Shown here one piece after another: positions 20,893 through 56,123 of a DNA stretch of 64,000 bases. How positions within the stretch are numbered: the first letter of the stretch is position 1; every line of letters begins with the position of its first letter. Origin of the DNA: Flavobacteriales bacterium (lineage in GTDB: Bacteria > Bacteroidota > Bacteroidia > Flavobacteriales_C > GCA-002722245); NCBI GenBank assembly GCA_023251075.1, contig JAHEZM010000006.1:1-64000 (forward strand), in the 5' to 3' direction. The notes beneath the pieces are model-generated. The model was not told where the DNA came from. It saw only the letters and a list, made by a program, of their open reading frames with translations, and ran no database searches. Both the position numbers and the translations under genes were made by a program.

Positions 20893-22662
20893 ATGAGTAT
20901 TGAACAAAAAATATCTGAGGCTGCTAAAAATGCCGCTCAGCTTTTATATAGTACTGAAATTGCTTCGTCGCAAATTCAACTACAAGCCTGCAAACCTGAA
21001 TTCGAAGGAGACTTAACTATTGTAGTTTTCCCTTTGCTGAAAATTTCAAAAAAATCACCTGAACAAACGGCCACTGACTTAGGAGAAGCTATAAAAAATA
21101 CTTTGCCTGAAATTTCTGCTTTCAATGTGGTAAAAGGATTTTTGAATCTTTCTGTTGCCGATAGTTATTGGTTAGATTCTTTTAAGAATCTCCAACCTCA
21201 CTCTCACTCTCACTCTCCCGCTCACTCTTCCAAAAAAATAATGGTGGAATATTCTTCACCAAACACTAATAAACCCTTACATCTCGGACACGTTAGAAAT
21301 AATTGTTTGGGTTATTCGGTTTCTGAGATTTTAAAAGCCAATGGAAGTGAGGTAATCAAAACTCAAATCATTAACGACAGAGGTATTCATATCTGCAAAT
21401 CAATGTTAGCCTGGGGGAAATGGGGAAATGGAGAAACCCCCCAATCTTCAAGCATCAAAGGAGATCATTTAGTTGGTAAATATTATGTGATGTTCGAGCA
21501 GGCCTACAAAAAAGAACAACAAGAACTGATTGCTGGTGGAATGGATGAAAAATCAGCCAAAACAAAAGCTCCTCTTTTTATTGAAGCATCGGATATGCTA
21601 AGAAAATGGGAAGCTAACGATACTGCTGTTGTAGAACTATGGAAAACAATGAACAACTGGGTTTATGAAGGGTTTGAGGCTACCTATAAAAAACTGGGCG
21701 TTGACTTCGATAAATTATATTACGAATCTCAAACTTATCTTCTCGGTAAAGAAATTATTGAAGAAGGGTTAAAAAAAGGTGTATTCTTTAAAAAAGAAGA
21801 TGGATCAGTATGGATTGATTTAACTGCTGATGGATTGGATGAAAAACTATTGCTGCGTTCTGATGGAACATCGGTTTATATCACACAAGACATAGGAACT
21901 GCTGTTGATCGATACAAAGATTTTAATGTTGATGGAATTATTTACACCGTTGCCAACGAACAAGATTATCACTTTAAAGTATTGTTCCTGATCTTGAAAA
22001 AAATGGGCTACTCTTTTTGGGAAGGACTATTTCACCTATCATATGGAATGGTAGAATTACCTAGCGGAAGAATGAAAACCCGCGAAGGCACAGTGGTGGA
22101 TGCCGATGATTTAATGGAAGAGATGATTAGTTCTGCAACGCAAAGCACCAAAGAAAAAGGCAAGCTAGATGAGCTTACTGAAGAAGAAAAAAATGAAGTA
22201 ATTCGCAAAATTGCGGTGGGTGCTTTGAAATATTTTATCTTAAAAGTTGATCCTAAAAAATCAATGATCTTTAACCCTGAAGAATCTATTGATTTCAATG
22301 GAAATACAGGGCCTTTCATTCAATACATTTATGTTCGTACCCGTTCTGTTTTAAGAAAAGTAAGTGATGAAAAAGTATGGACTATCTCTTCTCTTAGCAA
22401 AAAAGAAAAAGAATTAATCAAAAAAATATTATCTTATTCTTCTGTTGTAAAAGAAGCTGCGAAATTATATAGTCCGGCAATAATGGCCAATTACAGCTAC
22501 GAACTAGCCAAAGAGTTTTCCCAATTCTGGGCCGATCATCAAATTGTAAATGCTGATGACGAAAACTCAAAATACTTTAGAGTCCAGTTGTCGAAAGAGG
22601 TGGGAGACACTTTGAAAAAAGCAATGAAATTATTGGGAATCGAAATGCCGGAGAGAATGTAA
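20893..22662 (+). CDS. argS: arginyl-tRNA synthetase
   Basis: Class I aminoacyl-tRNA synthetase charging tRNA-Arg. The 589 residues begin with the ArgS N-terminal domain (~5-95). The HxGH signature is 'NKPLHLGHVRNN' (~133-144). The KMSKS region is replaced by 'GRMKTREG' as in many ArgS proteins. The C-terminal DALR anticodon-binding domain includes 'YIYVRTRSVLRKV' (~477-489). A short His/Ser run, 'HSHSHSPAHSS', sits just after the N-terminal domain. That is an unusual linker for the family. It stands alone as a transcription unit. Confidence 0.96.
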   Translation: MSIEQKISEAAKNAAQLLYSTEIASSQIQLQACKPEFEGDLTIVVFPLLKISKKSPEQTATDLGEAIKNTLPEISAFNVVKGFLNLSVADSYWLDSFKNLQPHSHSHSPAHSSKKIMVEYSSPNTNKPLHLGHVRNNCLGYSVSEILKANGSEVIKTQIINDRGIHICKSMLAWGKWGNGETPQSSSIKGDHLVGKYYVMFEQAYKKEQQELIAGGMDEKSAKTKAPLFIEASDMLRKWEANDTAVVELWKTMNNWVYEGFEATYKKLGVDFDKLYYESQTYLLGKEIIEEGLKKGVFFKKEDGSVWIDLTADGLDEKLLLRSDGTSVYITQDIGTAVDRYKDFNVDGIIYTVANEQDYHFKVLFLILKKMGYSFWEGLFHLSYGMVELPSGRMKTREGTVVDADDLMEEMISSATQSTKEKGKLDELTEEEKNEVIRKIAVGALKYFILKVDPKKSMIFNPEESIDFNGNTGPFIQYIYVRTRSVLRKVSDEKVWTISSLSKKEKELIKKILSYSSVVKEAAKLYSPAIMANYSYELAKEFSQFWADHQIVNADDENSKYFRVQLSKEVGDTLKKAMKLLGIEMPERM

Positions 22663-22724
22663 AAGCAAATCTTATGACCCACTCCACTTTCGTCATTGTA
22701 ATGAAGAGCTAGGAATTATAAGAA

Positions 22725-22961
22725 CTACTTAGTTTTTAAACTTTCATTTTCTGCTAATAACGCCGTATTTTTCGCTTTAAGATCTCTTATTTCCGAACGT
22801 AATCTCCACATTTCCGCTTTAGTGGCTCTAAGATCATCAATCGTTCCTAATTCCTGGTAGGCCACTATTTGAGCCTTTAATTCTTTACAATCGTTATGAG
22901 AATCTTTTGGTAAAAAAGCTAACGAAAGCACTACTGCTACAATAAAAAAATATTTCTTCAT
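22725..22961 (-). CDS. small exported coiled-coil protein
   Basis: This 78-residue protein has a signal peptide ('MKKYFFIVAVVLSLAFLP'). A long helix with heptad spacing ('DLKAKNTALLAENESLKTK' at the end) follows. It could form a periplasmic coiled coil. No family recognised. It lies downstream of the typA terminator, so it has its own promoter. Confidence 0.65.
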   Translation of the reverse strand: MKKYFFIVAVVLSLAFLPKDSHNDCKELKAQIVAYQELGTIDDLRATKAEMWRLRSEIRDLKAKNTALLAENESLKTK

Positions 22962-22990
22962 CCTTTTGTTTTTTAATTTTCAAAAATAAA

Positions 22991-23024
22991 AAAAGGATTT
23001 AAGTTTTTATCCTTAAATCCTTTT
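22991..23024 (-). terminator. terminator of typA
   Basis: AAAAGGATTTAAG (22991-23003) pairs with CTTAAATCCTTTT (23012-23024). The A run at 22984-22994 is the U tract on the minus strand. Confidence 0.75.
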
Positions 23025-23044
23025 CTTTCGAATTTTACTTCTTA

Positions 23045-24838
23045 TTATTTTCCACCACGTTTTCTTTCACCTTCTTTCAATAATATTTTTCTCAAACGAA
23101 TAGATTGTGGAGTTACTTCAACAAACTCATCTGATTGAATATACTCTAATGCTTCCTCTAAAGAATGTTTGATAGCAGGAATGATTCTCACCTTGTTATC
23201 AGAACCTGAAGCACGCATGTTGGTTAATTGTTTTGATTTGGTAACGTTAATACACAAATCACCTTCCTTGCTGTGCTCGCCAATAACCTGACCTTCATAA
23301 ATATCAGTTGTTGGGTCGATAAAGAATTTACCTCTGTCTTGTAATTTATCAATGGAGTAAGCAATAGATGTACCTTGCTCCAAAGAGATCAAAGAACCAT
23401 TTTGTCTTTCTGGAATCTCCCCTTTCCAAGGCTCGTAAGCTTTGAAACGATGCGACATAATAGCCTCTCCTGCTGTTGCAGTAAGCATGTTACTTCTTAA
23501 ACCAATGATACCACGAGAAGGAATATTGAATTCTATTTTAACACGAGATCCTGTTGGAACCATGCTTAACATCTCTCCTTTTCTTCTGGTTAACATATCG
23601 ATAGCTGTACCAGAATATTCATCTGGAACGTCGATAGTTAAAGCCTCAATAGGTTCGCATTTTTTACCATCAATAGTTTTAATTAAAACTTGTGGCTGAC
23701 CAACTTGCAATTCATAGCCTTCACGACGCATCTCCTCAATCAAAATTGACAAGTGCAATACACCACGACCATAAACCATAAAGCTATCTGCAGAACCGGT
23801 TGGCTCCATTTTCATTGCCAAGTTTTTCTCTAATTCTTTTTCTAATCTTTCTTTGATGTGACGAGAAGTAACGAATTTACCTTCTTTACCAAAGAACGGT
23901 GAATTGTTGATAGAAAACAACATACTCATAGTTGGCTCATCGATTGAGATGGCAGGCATTGCTTCAGGATTGTCGATATCGGCAACAGTATCACCAATTT
24001 CAAATTCCTCTAAACCAACAATAGCACATATTTCACCGGCTGCTACTTTTTCAACTTTAATTTTGCCCAAACCTTCAAACACCATCAATTCCTTGATTTT
24101 TTGTTTCACCTGGCGGCCATCTCTCTTGATCAACATGATGTTTTGTCCGGGAACCAATGAACCTCTAAACAATCTTCCAATGGCAATACGCCCAACGAAA
24201 GAAGAGAAATCCAAAGCAGTAATTTGCAACTGAGTAGCACCCACGGCAATTTTAGGAGCCGGAATGTGTTCAATTACTTTTTCCAATAAGATATTGATAT
24301 TGTCAGTTTTGTTCTCCCAATGATCACTCATCCAGCCCATTTTAGCTGCACCGTAAACAACAGGGTAATCCAACTGATCTTCGTTAGCATCTAACTCGAA
24401 CATCAAATCGAACACTTTCTCATTAGTCAATTCAGGATCACAGTTTTCTTTATCTACTTTATTTACAACCACAATTGGTTTAATACCCAATTGCAAAGCT
24501 TTTTGCAATACGAAACGCGTTTGAGGCATTGGTCCCTCAAAAGCATCTACCAATAACAATACACCGTCGGTCATTTTTAGTACACGCTCTACCTCACCAC
24601 CAAAGTCACTGTGACCAGGAGTATCGATAATATTGATTTTAGTGTCTTTATAGGTAACAGAACAGTTTTTAGAACGAATGGTAATACCTCTCTCACGCTC
24701 CAATTCATTAGAGTCCATGATCAAGTCACCTGTTTCTTTGTGCTCTGAAAATAATTTTCCTGCTGTTAAAATTTTATCTACCAAGGTAGTCTTACCGTGG
24801 TCAACGTGGGCGATAATCGCGATGTTCCTAATGTTCAT
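23045..24838 (-). CDS. typA: translational GTPase TypA/BipA
   Basis: Ribosome-binding GTPase related to EF-G and linked to 50S assembly and stress or cold growth. The 597 residues start with the P-loop 'AHVDHGKTTLVDK' (~10-22). Next come 'ERERGITIRSKN' (switch I) and 'DTPGHSDFGGE', with 'NKVDKENCD' for guanine recognition. Domains II, III and V and the TypA-specific C-terminus ('RKILLKEGERKRGGK' at the end) are present. It is monocistronic, with its own terminator. Confidence 0.96.
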   Translation of the reverse strand: MNIRNIAIIAHVDHGKTTLVDKILTAGKLFSEHKETGDLIMDSNELERERGITIRSKNCSVTYKDTKINIIDTPGHSDFGGEVERVLKMTDGVLLLVDAFEGPMPQTRFVLQKALQLGIKPIVVVNKVDKENCDPELTNEKVFDLMFELDANEDQLDYPVVYGAAKMGWMSDHWENKTDNINILLEKVIEHIPAPKIAVGATQLQITALDFSSFVGRIAIGRLFRGSLVPGQNIMLIKRDGRQVKQKIKELMVFEGLGKIKVEKVAAGEICAIVGLEEFEIGDTVADIDNPEAMPAISIDEPTMSMLFSINNSPFFGKEGKFVTSRHIKERLEKELEKNLAMKMEPTGSADSFMVYGRGVLHLSILIEEMRREGYELQVGQPQVLIKTIDGKKCEPIEALTIDVPDEYSGTAIDMLTRRKGEMLSMVPTGSRVKIEFNIPSRGIIGLRSNMLTATAGEAIMSHRFKAYEPWKGEIPERQNGSLISLEQGTSIAYSIDKLQDRGKFFIDPTTDIYEGQVIGEHSKEGDLCINVTKSKQLTNMRASGSDNKVRIIPAIKHSLEEALEYIQSDEFVEVTPQSIRLRKILLKEGERKRGGK

Positions 24839-24936
24839 ACTTTTCTTTTGTGCGTTTAAGGGCGCAAAGATAGGAAAAATCTTAACAGCAGGGCACTAAA
24901 GTAGCTGAATACCAATTTTAACCACGATTTAAATAT

Positions 24937-25149
24937 TCAATTAGCAAAAATTGGCAGACTTAAAATCTCTTTTTCTAACTCTGCCCGAGTTAACAAATTC
25001 TGATTACTAATTAAGTATTGATTAAAGATATTGCTATTAATTACACTTCTTTTTCCCGCACTGTAAGCCAATCCATACTGAGCCTGAGTTTCTAAATACT
25101 CCTGATACAATCGATCATTAAGTAAATTATAATATTGTTGTGTGTTCAT
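24937..25149 (-). CDS. 70-residue hypothetical protein downstream of a terminator hairpin
   Basis: The start chosen is ATG 25147-25149 ('MNTQQYYNLLNDRLYQEY'). A longer frame from 25251 would have to run through a strong terminator, so it is rejected as the main start. The product is polar, Gln/Tyr/Asn-rich and has no signal or membrane segment. The hairpin at 25181-25208 is only 32 bases before the start codon, which leaves little room for another promoter. The gene is therefore probably expressed by read-through. The function is unknown. Confidence 0.55.
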   Translation of the reverse strand: MNTQQYYNLLNDRLYQEYLETQAQYGLAYSAGKRSVINSNIFNQYLISNQNLLTRAELEKEILSLPIFAN

Positions 25150-25174
25150 GATTTCTAATTTTAAGATTGAATAA

Positions 25175-25317
25175 TAAAAAAACCGCTTGTTAAGGATAAC
25201 AAGCGGTTCAAGTTTTTTCTGTTGATTAATATTTAGCAGACAAACATGCACTTCCTGTTACCCGAATGGGGATAGCATGGGACGAACGAGTGCTTTAGCT
25301 TAAACATTAAATTATTC
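25175..25317 (-). ncRNA. candidate small structured RNA or attenuating leader
   Basis: The promoter at 25324-25355 (TTG-N21-TATATTTG on the minus strand) predicts a start near 25317. The RNA holds a GC-rich core: outer stem 25248-25252/25289-25293, inner CCC/GGG hairpin 25261-25270. It ends in a perfect 12-bp terminator stem (25181-25192 with 25197-25208, loop of 4) and a U tract. The length of ~140 nt and this layout suit an independent sRNA or a cis-acting leader of the gene at 24937. I could not assign a family; SRP RNA should be tested. Confidence 0.5.
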
Positions 25318-25323
25318 ATAGAG

Positions 25324-25355
25324 CAAATATACTCTAACAATACTATGTTGTGCAA
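25324..25355 (-). promoter_or_regulatory. Bacteroidota-type promoter of the RNA at 25175-25317
   Basis: On the minus strand: TTG (25353-25355), 21 bases, TATATTTG (25324-25331). Full match to the -33/-7 pattern. Confidence 0.65.
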
Positions 25356-25439
25356 GAAAAATTTTAAATAAAAGTTAAAATATATTTTATTGAACTTTTA
25401 TAAATTTTAATTACCTTATTACTCCAAACCCTTTATGAT

Positions 25440-25922
25440 ATGAGAAAAATTTTACTTTATTCCTTCGGCACTTTCGCTTTTCTGGCGTTTATGCCAGACA
25501 ACAATGATCATTGCGATTGCGCATTTTCGATAAGCAGTATGGAAGAAGCATTAAAAGCACCGGAAACAGTAAAATGTTTGGATTTATCAATGCAGAAACT
25601 CAAAGTAGTTCCGGCTGATGTTGCCAAACTCACCAATTTAGAATGTTTAGATTTGGCTTTCAATCACATCAGCACTTTACCAGAAAACATAACCTCCTTA
25701 ACTAAATTAAAATACATCAATCTTAATGGCACGAGGTATATGCCCAAAATGCCTTCGGTGCTTACAAAAATACCTTCTTTAAAACGAGTTGATGTAAAAG
25801 ATCATCCTGAATGGAGCGCTGCTACTAAAGAAGAAGCAAAAAAACTGTTGCCAAATGTTAATGTGGTTACGGAAGAACAAGTAAATAGTGAAGTAGAAAT
25901 TAAAATTCCTGTTGCCAAATAG
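25440..25922 (+). CDS. exported leucine-rich-repeat protein
   Basis: This 160-residue protein has a signal segment (1-20). Two to three leucine-rich repeats follow (~50-115), e.g. 'LDLSMQKLKVVPADVAKL' and 'LDLAFNHISTLPENITSL', the typical bacterial 'LxLxxNxLxxLPxxI' form. LRRs bind proteins. A Cys cluster 'HCDCAF' follows the signal. A possible promoter, TTG-N19-TACCTTAT, is at ~25390-25419. No T9SS tail; a periplasmic or secreted location is likely. Confidence 0.78.
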   Translation: MRKILLYSFGTFAFLAFMPDNNDHCDCAFSISSMEEALKAPETVKCLDLSMQKLKVVPADVAKLTNLECLDLAFNHISTLPENITSLTKLKYINLNGTRYMPKMPSVLTKIPSLKRVDVKDHPEWSAATKEEAKKLLPNVNVVTEEQVNSEVEIKIPVAK

Positions 25923-25928
25923 CTGAAT

Positions 25929-26825
25929 TTATTTCCCTACAATTTTTGCATAACGGGAAATATTACCTGGGTCAACCTTAGATAAAAAATCAACGATCGG
26001 CTGTTTATCAGGAACAGATTCATCACTAAAAATATTTACTATCTCTCTGTTTTTAGCATCGAAAAATACTTTCATAGAATAGGCACTCGGTTTTCTGGTT
26101 TGAATCGCTTGTAAAGTTTTTAGGTTCTCTATGATAACTTGTCGGCCTTTTGCTATGTCCGTACTCATTATATCTAATCCTAAACGATGATAGTTGTATA
26201 AAGTAGTGTGAATAGGATCATAAACTGGGTTCATTAAATTTTCAATTAGCCAATATCTGTTTTTTGTACCATCATTGGCCTTCCAGCCAGATTCTGCACT
26301 ATTCAAACAATTATTCACTACGTTTTGTGCTTTTTGAAAATAATCGGCTCCGCCTTTCAACGAATAACTATCATAATCGAAAGCCAATACCATGTATGCA
26401 TAATAAGCCAAAACAGAAGTTAGATTAGAAATATTATCGTTATCTGAATAATCTAAATTTTGATTCAATGAATAATTAAAATTAAAGTCATTGTCATTCA
26501 CATCAAACAAAGTGGATTTATAGGTGGTTCCATAAATAGGTCTGCTCGATTGCAATTGTAATGTAGCCTCATATCTATCAGCAGTAGGTACATTTTTAAT
26601 GGTAATAAACATATTGCATTCAATACGTTCTGTTAATGCGTAAACATGATTGGTCCATTTCCTTGAATTAACAAAATCAGAAATATCCTTTTTCATCTTC
26701 TGAAAAACAGTAACATCAACACTATTGTTTACTTGTGCGAAATTAATATCCACAGTGCAGTTTAATTCTTGGGCAGAAGATCCCAAAACACAAAAAACAA
26801 ATACCCATATTAAAAAACGCTGCAT
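25929..26825 (-). CDS. DUF4835 family exported protein
   Basis: This 298-residue protein has a signal peptide (1-19, 'WVFVFCVLGSSAQ'). It has the features of the Bacteroidota DUF4835 family: 'ELNCTVDIN' at the mature start, the middle 'NLTSVLAYYAYMVLAFDYDSY', and 'FDAKNREIVNIFS' near the end. It lies 2 bases after coaBC, the usual neighbour of this family. Its job is unknown; an envelope role is inferred from export. Confidence 0.88.
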   Translation of the reverse strand: MQRFLIWVFVFCVLGSSAQELNCTVDINFAQVNNSVDVTVFQKMKKDISDFVNSRKWTNHVYALTERIECNMFITIKNVPTADRYEATLQLQSSRPIYGTTYKSTLFDVNDNDFNFNYSLNQNLDYSDNDNISNLTSVLAYYAYMVLAFDYDSYSLKGGADYFQKAQNVVNNCLNSAESGWKANDGTKNRYWLIENLMNPVYDPIHTTLYNYHRLGLDIMSTDIAKGRQVIIENLKTLQAIQTRKPSAYSMKVFFDAKNREIVNIFSDESVPDKQPIVDFLSKVDPGNISRYAKIVGK

Positions 26826-26827
26826 AG

Positions 26828-28027
26828 TTATTTTGATTTTAATATTTCTTCAATTTGACGAACAATATCTTGAGCAATTTCAGTTTTCGACTTTTTCTCA
26901 AACGTTTTTATCACGCCATTAGTATCTACAAATGTAACTTGATTCAAATCACTTCCAAAGGCATCATTCTCAGTGTTTACAGAATTAAGAACAATAAAAT
27001 CGGCATTTTTTGCAATGGCCTTCTGTTTGGCATTTTCTATTTCATTTTGAGTTTCCATCGCAAAACCAACCACCACCTGATGGTTTTTCTTTTTAGAACC
27101 CAAAGTCAACAAAATATCTCCGGTTTTATGCAGCACCAATTCAAAGATATTTTCCTTCTTCTTAATTTTATTTTGTTGTATTTGTGAAGGTGCATAATCA
27201 GCAACAGCTGCCGCCATTACAGCTATATCCACCTGCTCGAATTCTTTTTCGCAGGCCTCCAACATTTCTTTAGCACTATAAACATCCATTCTATGAATAC
27301 CCGGAACTATAGTTTTAACCTTCGATGGTCCCATTACCAAAGTAACCTTTGCTCCTTTTCTGGCAAGTAATTCAGCTACTGCCATTCCCATTTTACCTGA
27401 AGAATGATTCCCAACAAATCTGATAGGATCAAGCGCCTCATAAGTTGGACCGGCGGTCAATAACACTTTTTTTCCTAACAAAGTTTTTTCTGAAAGATGA
27501 AATCGTATATGTTCTGCAATTTCTTCCGGTTCAGCCATTCTTCCTTCTCCTTCTAATCCACTAGCCAATAAACCATAACCCGGTTTTATCATTATATTTC
27601 CATAACTCAACAACTTCTGAATATTAATTTGAGTGGCTTGATGCTGAAACATATCTAGATCCATAGCTGGAGCAAATAACACTCTACATCTCGCCGATAA
27701 ATAAACCGCTAGCAGAAGATTATCACACTGGCCTTGGGCCATCTTACTCAAAGTATTTGCGCTAGCCGGAGCGATTACAATAATATCAGCCCACAAACCT
27801 AAATCAACATGGTTATTCCACAATCCAGCTTCATCAGTGAAAGAGCTAAGAACTTTGTTTTCAGATAAAACAGATAATGTAAGAGGGGTTATAAAATCAG
27901 AAGCGGAAGGGGTCATTACAACCTTCACTTCCGCTTCTTCTTTCTTTAATATTCTAACCAAATGTGCTATTTTATAAGCCGCAATACTGGCAGTTATCCC
28001 AAGTATTATTTTTTTGCCTTTAAGCAT
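26828..28027 (-). CDS. coaBC: bifunctional phosphopantothenoylcysteine decarboxylase/phosphopantothenate-cysteine ligase
   Basis: Coenzyme A biosynthesis: joins cysteine to 4'-phosphopantothenate, then decarboxylates. At 399 residues it has the standard length. The FMN-binding CoaC half (~1-180) has 'LGITASIAAYK' and the substrate motif 'PAMDLDM', Asp where most have Asn (PAMNxxM). The CoaB half starts 'KVLLTAGPTYEALDPIRF' and has 'GNHSSGKMG' and 'DYAPSQIQQNKIKK'. It is between rpoZ and the DUF4835 gene on one transcript. Confidence 0.96.
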   Translation of the reverse strand: MLKGKKIILGITASIAAYKIAHLVRILKKEEAEVKVVMTPSASDFITPLTLSVLSENKVLSSFTDEAGLWNNHVDLGLWADIIVIAPASANTLSKMAQGQCDNLLLAVYLSARCRVLFAPAMDLDMFQHQATQINIQKLLSYGNIMIKPGYGLLASGLEGEGRMAEPEEIAEHIRFHLSEKTLLGKKVLLTAGPTYEALDPIRFVGNHSSGKMGMAVAELLARKGAKVTLVMGPSKVKTIVPGIHRMDVYSAKEMLEACEKEFEQVDIAVMAAAVADYAPSQIQQNKIKKKENIFELVLHKTGDILLTLGSKKKNHQVVVGFAMETQNEIENAKQKAIAKNADFIVLNSVNTENDAFGSDLNQVTFVDTNGVIKTFEKKSKTEIAQDIVRQIEEILKSK

Positions 28028-28050
28028 AGAAAGACAAAAAGGTTTAACGA

Positions 28051-28401
28051 TTAATCGTTAGAGATTTCTTTCTCTTCAATTTTCGGTTCGTTAGCAGGGT
28101 TTCTGTGATAAATTTCACCATCTTCCCACTCTTTAGAAGCAATTAAACCTGGTTTAGGTAAACGCTCATAAAATTTAGAGATTTCAATCTGCTCACGGTT
28201 TTCAAACACCTCTTCCAAACTATCTGTAGCTGTGGCAAATTCTTCCAATTTTTGATTTAATTCAGTTTTTAAATCAACACCAATCTGATTCGCTCTTTTT
28301 GCCAAAACATTGATAACTTCATAAATGTTTCCATCATTGGTAAAAGCATTAACATCTCTCGTTACAGTTGAGTTTGGCGCTTTTGTTTTTTTGTAATCCA
28401 T
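28051..28401 (-). CDS. rpoZ: RNA polymerase omega subunit, Bacteroidota type
   Basis: This 116-residue protein has the start 'MDYKKTKAPNSTVTRDVNAF' and the conserved block 'NIYEVINVLAKRANQI', which is the omega helix that clamps the beta' C-terminus. 'SLEEVFENREQIEISKFYE' follows, as is typical of Bacteroidota RpoZ. Omega assists polymerase assembly. It is 3 bases after bamD and 23 before coaBC, the common Bacteroidota order. The C-terminal ~25 residues are a charged extension. Confidence 0.92.
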   Translation of the reverse strand: MDYKKTKAPNSTVTRDVNAFTNDGNIYEVINVLAKRANQIGVDLKTELNQKLEEFATATDSLEEVFENREQIEISKFYERLPKPGLIASKEWEDGEIYHRNPANEPKIEEKEISND

Positions 28402-55920: not shown

Positions 55921-55926
55921 CGTACG

Positions 55927-56000
55927 TGGTCCCGTAGGGATTCGAACCCCAAACCTTCTGATCCGTAGTCAGATGCTCTATCCAGTTAAGCTACGGGACC
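55927..56000 (-). tRNA. tRNA-Arg (anticodon ACG)
   Basis: Minus-strand cloverleaf. The acceptor stem GGTCCCG/CGGGACC flanks it. The D-loop is 'AGCTTAACTGGATAGAGC'. The anticodon loop CTACGGA gives ACG. The T-arm 'GGTTCGAATCC' is present. 3'-CCA is not encoded. It follows tRNA-Ser by 36 bases on the same transcript. Confidence 0.95.
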
Positions 56001-56035
56001 GTTTCAGAACAAAGACGATACCATCGCTTTGTTTC

Positions 56036-56123
<88 letters not shown>

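Follow-up and report, generated by a model that had tools for sequence, protein, structure and literature searches.

Does a promoter motif followed by a terminator, directly ahead of a small reading frame, mark a small RNA gene or a regulatory leader? The question is raised by a locus on the minus strand of a 64,000-nucleotide stretch of DNA from a Flavobacteriales bacterium (hereafter the window), where a short RNA is predicted between the translational GTPase gene typA and a divergent leucine-rich-repeat (LRR) protein gene. The parts of this RNA block, their order and their spacing are read directly from the DNA (Table 1), as is the absence of detectable relatives described below.

Table 1. 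Features of the RNA block and its neighbours, in window coordinates.
Feature	Positions	Strand	Remarks
Putative sigma-ABfr-type promoter	25324..25355	-	TTG 25355-25353, 21-nt spacer, TATATTTG 25331-25324; sequence and motif scan
Predicted short RNA, ~146 nt	25174..25319	-	From predicted +1 to the last base of the U run; inferred from the two flanking signals
28-codon ORF in the core, probably not coding	25233..25319	-	Would have no leader, its ATG being at the predicted +1
Core, predicted long imperfect hairpin	25226..25310	-	-19.6 kcal/mol with flanks; weak, z -1.8 without the terminator
Possible antiterminator element GGGUAACAGG	25254..25263	-	Pairs with 25203-25194
Intrinsic terminator	25180..25209	-	Stem of 13 pairs with a 4-nt loop (5' arm plus loop 25209-25193); U run reaches 25174
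70-codon ORF, orphan	24937..25149	-	ATG at 25149; coding-like codon usage; inside a longer GTG frame, 24937-25251
typA (translational GTPase TypA/BipA)	23045..24838	-	TIGR01394, 894 bits; own upstream TATCTTTG motif
Divergent LRR protein gene, flank of the block	25440..25922	+	Orthologue in G001

Layout of the RNA block

By comparison with an excerpt of PMC6847099, the promoter motif is of the type used by the Bacteroidota primary sigma factor (TTTG / TANNTTTG), and the T-12 to G-5 numbering given there places the predicted +1 at 25319 on the minus strand. The first-pass annotation had described a full-match promoter. Its parts are indeed present, but TTG-N17-23-TAnnTTTG occurred 19 times in a motif scan of the window compared with 17.9 +/- 3.8 times in shuffles, so that the motif alone is no evidence and counts as circumstantial only. 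Upstream of typA, the -7 motif TATCTTTG was found in nine of the ten family genomes read, with TATCTTCG in its place in the tenth (G004), an indication that the clade uses the motif.

The terminator is built on a perfect 12-bp inverted repeat (25181-25208; 13 pairs counting G-U) followed by TTTTTTT, and its stem ends 31-32 nt ahead of the ATG at 25149, bearing out the 12-bp terminator that had been placed about 32 bases before a start codon. Using one rule, we surveyed 460,373 bases of the same genome and found 48 terminators, two of which, this one included, carry the full TTG-N17-23-TAHHTTTG motif 50-250 nt upstream. Elsewhere in the window, two near-identical strong terminators (AAGCCCTCATGGT...ACCATGAGGGCTT) lie on the plus strand at 280 and 3126, about 2.8 kb apart.

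The RNA had also been credited with a GC-rich folded core unlike its surroundings, a description that survived in part. GC content is 0.47-0.51 in the core (25232-25297 and 25243-25295) and 0.14-0.19 in the flank just upstream, yet in 80-nt windows the core reaches 0.44 and neighbouring coding DNA 0.45. The core is moderately GC-rich: it contrasts with the upstream gap and falls inside the range of the neighbouring genes. The whole predicted RNA folded far better than shuffles (z -4.4 and -4.5 in two runs), but this strength stems mostly from the terminator. With the terminator removed, 25 of 500 shuffles folded at least as well (z -1.8), and tighter cores gave z values of -1.1, -0.4 and -1.2. 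The core alone thus folds little better than shuffles, and a folded core is not clearly above chance.

Downstream of the terminator, the 70-codon ORF has the best codon score of its six frames, matched by 0.017 of shuffles, giving modest support for coding. No promoter motif was seen in the 24-31 nt between the terminator and its ATG, where there is little room for one, so expression of the ORF would need readthrough. With a limit of E<=0.1, the 70-residue protein was matched in four of 60 genomes: its own and three others, these weakly (best E 0.0067) and within open frames of 526-1354 codons. It had no relative in the plasmids, genome_contigs or viral_contigs collections and no Pfam or NCBIfam family, with PHROG 5394 reached at E 0.018. 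The AlphaFold prediction for the protein alone was uninformative (mean pLDDT 54.7). We considered and dropped a type I toxin-antitoxin system: the RNA is encoded ahead of the ORF on the same strand rather than antisense to it, and by eye the protein has no hydrophobic stretch.

A second frame, of 28 codons, is open from 25319 to 25236, and the A of its ATG coincides with the predicted +1, as numbered from the PMC6847099 excerpt. The RNA could accordingly be imagined as a leaderless mRNA encoding a peptide of 28 residues, or the peptide as a leader that controls the terminator. Scored on 27 of its 28 codons, however, this frame falls short of the average shuffle (0.927 of shuffles equalled or beat it), and the peptide matched only four of 198 genomes: its own and three weak ones, which by eye look like chance matches to parts of other genes read out of frame or antisense. 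Leaderless mRNAs, moreover, were 5.5% in F. psychrophilum, according to an excerpt of PMC9723704. The frame is probably not coding, and we regard a role for such a peptide as very improbable.

Genomic setting

DNA alignment to the nearest relative, G001, covers window positions 23033-24873 and resumes at 25426-28368, and the 552 bases between the aligned stretches hold both the RNA and the 70-codon ORF. This break in homology places the RNA block at a lineage-specific junction. In G001, typA lies beside argS, a beta-helix-like gene (our own reading) precedes the LRR gene, and the RNA is at neither place.

The neighbour of typA differs over the five species of the genus, being argS in G001, a DEAD-box-like helicase gene (our own reading) in G002-G004 and the RNA block in the window genome. 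The argS and typA genes (window 20893-24838) are convergent here and divergent in G001, pointing to local rearrangement. TypA is 98% identical to the G001 protein, with third codon positions 76% identical, a pattern that looks like constraint rather than recent transfer. The window scan listed no terminator-like site between the 70-codon ORF and typA, so that polymerases reading through could get as far as typA, a gene that also carries a promoter motif of its own.

On the far side of the block, the LRR gene (ending at 25922) and a DUF4835 gene (ending at 25929) converge with a 6-nt gap, an arrangement also found in G001, and their transcripts probably overlap. The terminator could alternatively end transcripts arriving from upstream. 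A minus-strand transcript of a coaBC-DUF4835 operon would then run antisense through the LRR gene and stop at this terminator, and the promoter motif would be due to chance. The abutting gene ends fit this arrangement, as does the lack of any listed minus-strand terminator-like site between 25929 and 25209, but such a transcript would have to cross about 720 nt beyond the stop codon, and the full promoter motif is well placed in the AT-rich gap. We consider an operon tail doubtful.

Searches for relatives and known RNA families

As a control, we used the genome's own SRP RNA as a DNA query and recovered it in eight of the ten family genomes, among them all five genomes of the genus: its own and, at 94-98%, the four others. 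The predicted RNA, searched as DNA in 100 genomes, was found in its own genome and in G057 only, there over 43 of 181 positions (E 5.8e-4) and excluding the GC-rich core. Searching the ten family genomes with core DNA at E<=10 yielded short scraps of 14-28 nt, the best outside its own genome having E 0.006 over 24 nt. A core pattern matched one of 198 genomes, its own. Covariance model R1, which is weak because it was built from a single sequence, matched two of the 198, namely its own and L072 (E 0.78), the latter by eye without the promoter-terminator layout. In genome_contigs, the core pattern matched two stretches (by title an archaeon and an Anaerolinea MAG), within the chance expectation of about 9 by our own estimate. 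Viral contigs gave 0 matches, plasmids one record at E 0.8, and phages 23 records, of which those listed cover at most 19%. The predicted RNA is thus not conserved in the nine other family genomes searched, four congeners among them. Conservation of the core, with or without the small gene, had been proposed as a check; no homologue of either the core or the 70-codon gene emerged. Keyword searches of open PMC papers returned no report of the RNA block, and we make no claim of absence from print.

Known families were screened with Rfam, as the first-pass annotation had suggested. At gathering scores, the only matches in the whole window were two tRNAs, with none at the RNA block; tRNA and tmRNA were rejected, ARAGORN finding only two tRNAs in the window, at 55926-56123. 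Up to E 10, the block gave sub-threshold low scores alone (25.8 bits at best, where the cut-off is 59), and the trpB motif, Trp_leader, GibS and FopS were all discarded as sub-threshold. A clear match to a housekeeping RNA, which that annotation had named as refuting its reading, did not occur. SRP RNA (RF00169), the family named first in that annotation, had no match at the block in either screen, and the genome's true copy lies on another contig (C44, 57.5 bits).

A diverged housekeeping RNA missed by the Rfam models, such as 6S RNA, was also weighed. RF00013 and RF01685 match nowhere in the window's own genome, which would leave a place for a diverged 6S RNA; the RF01685 (6S-Flavo) controls were silent too, making this a weak test. 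Against such a reading, SRP RNA DNA is present in eight of ten family genomes and kept across the genus, whereas the predicted short RNA occurs in its own genome only, which is not expected of a housekeeping RNA, and the block is missing at both its flanks in G001. We consider this explanation extremely improbable.

Core-terminator pairing and the main reading

Within the core, GGGUAACAGG can pair without a break over 10 bp with CUUGUUAUCC in the 5' arm and loop of the terminator (-14.8 kcal/mol). A pairing as good arose in 0.0115 of 2000 shuffles (0.013 and 0.007 in repeat tests), but it was spotted by eye before testing, so that p ~0.01 is optimistic. When the RNA is cut before the 3' arm of the terminator, the antiterminator becomes the minimum fold (-21.9 kcal/mol), whereas in the complete RNA the terminated fold is the more stable by 14 kcal/mol (-38.2 vs -24.2). 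Nothing similar was found at 12 other terminators in the window (p 0.28-0.97). Among the 48 terminators of the 460-kb survey, however, three reach p<=0.02, with about one expected, and two pair at -14.8 kcal/mol or lower, the terminator studied here being included in both counts. We take the pairing as a weak hint of attenuation, not as a result.

A regulated attenuator would switch the core between two folds chosen by a signal. In one, the core hairpin would form and leave the terminator free to stop transcription; in the other, GGGUAACAGG would capture CUUGUUAUCC and transcription would enter the 70-codon ORF and perhaps typA. The length and energy of the pairing, its place as minimum fold in the unfinished transcript and its absence at the other window terminators speak for such a switch. 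The selection by eye, the similar cases in the wider survey, the preference of the finished RNA for termination and the failure to find any homologue, hence any covariation, speak against it. We rate regulated attenuation as possible but unlikely. The first-pass annotation had offered two readings, a small RNA made in abundance or an attenuator of the 70-residue protein. Both are compatible with these data, and the possible antiterminator speaks for the second; a fold near chance and the absence of the core from four congeners speak against a sensed and conserved core. More speculatively still, the leader could be a bistable attenuator that arose recently in one species of the genus, its core mimicking the 3' arm of the terminator (GUAACAGG vs UAACAAGCGG) and holding transcription open into the orphan small protein and typA, so that a translational GTPase would come partly under a new switch; this we regard as a long shot.

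The most likely interpretation is that the locus would make a short, terminated RNA confined to this species, the orphan small ORF being expressed by leakage past the terminator. We give a probability of about 0.5 to a short, lineage-specific unit of transcription, about 146 nt long, that would yield mainly an orphan intergenic small RNA. The primary sigma factor would start the RNA at about 25319 and the strong intrinsic terminator would end it at about 25174, while the 70-codon ORF, if expressed, would be reached by readthrough polymerases, some of which could continue into typA. Transcription, the dominance of termination and production of the ORF by readthrough are the three steps that we infer. 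This short unit is supported by the promoter motif, the terminator and their spacing, by the full upstream motif, present at 2/48 of the surveyed terminators, by use of the motif in the clade and by the codon score of the ORF; it is opposed by the chance frequency of the motif, the near-chance core fold and the lack of conservation in the nine other family genomes.

Among known systems, the bacterial small SRP RNA (RF00169) is also a short stand-alone RNA of similar size, but it is encoded elsewhere in this genome. The trpB motif (RF04312) and Trp_leader (RF00513) resemble the block weakly (25.8 and 19.5 bits, largely from the terminator region), with far higher gathering scores (59 and 41) and no trp gene among the family-scanned neighbours. 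Terminator/antiterminator attenuators share the line of promoter, leader, terminator and ORF and the possible alternative pairing that breaks the terminator, whereas the window RNA has no conserved sensing core, known ligand or known leader peptide. Attenuation is possible, and if the antiterminator works the locus would carry greater weight: a translational GTPase could be coupled to a newly evolved leader, because no terminator is listed between the small ORF and typA.

The closest comparison is with the intergenic small RNAs of Bacteroides thetaiotaomicron, as presented in an excerpt of PMC7366714, where a start site and an intrinsic terminator define 49 high-confidence members. At the window RNA, the 3' end offers 13 pairs and a U run, and the 5' end the full promoter motif at a frequency equal to chance. 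The model of GibS itself (RF04182), whose gathering score is 115, reaches 17.6 bits here, and on the opposite strand. The likeness of the predicted RNA to this group lies in form: GibS has about the same length (145 nt), and these RNAs have an intrinsic terminator and a sigma-ABfr-type promoter, the latter putative in the window. Strain specificity is frequent among them (27 of the 49 in that excerpt), which makes an orphan of such form ordinary. The RNA block thus looks ordinary for its phylum; if transcribed, it would add one more species-specific small RNA to a phylum with many strain-specific, high-confidence ones.
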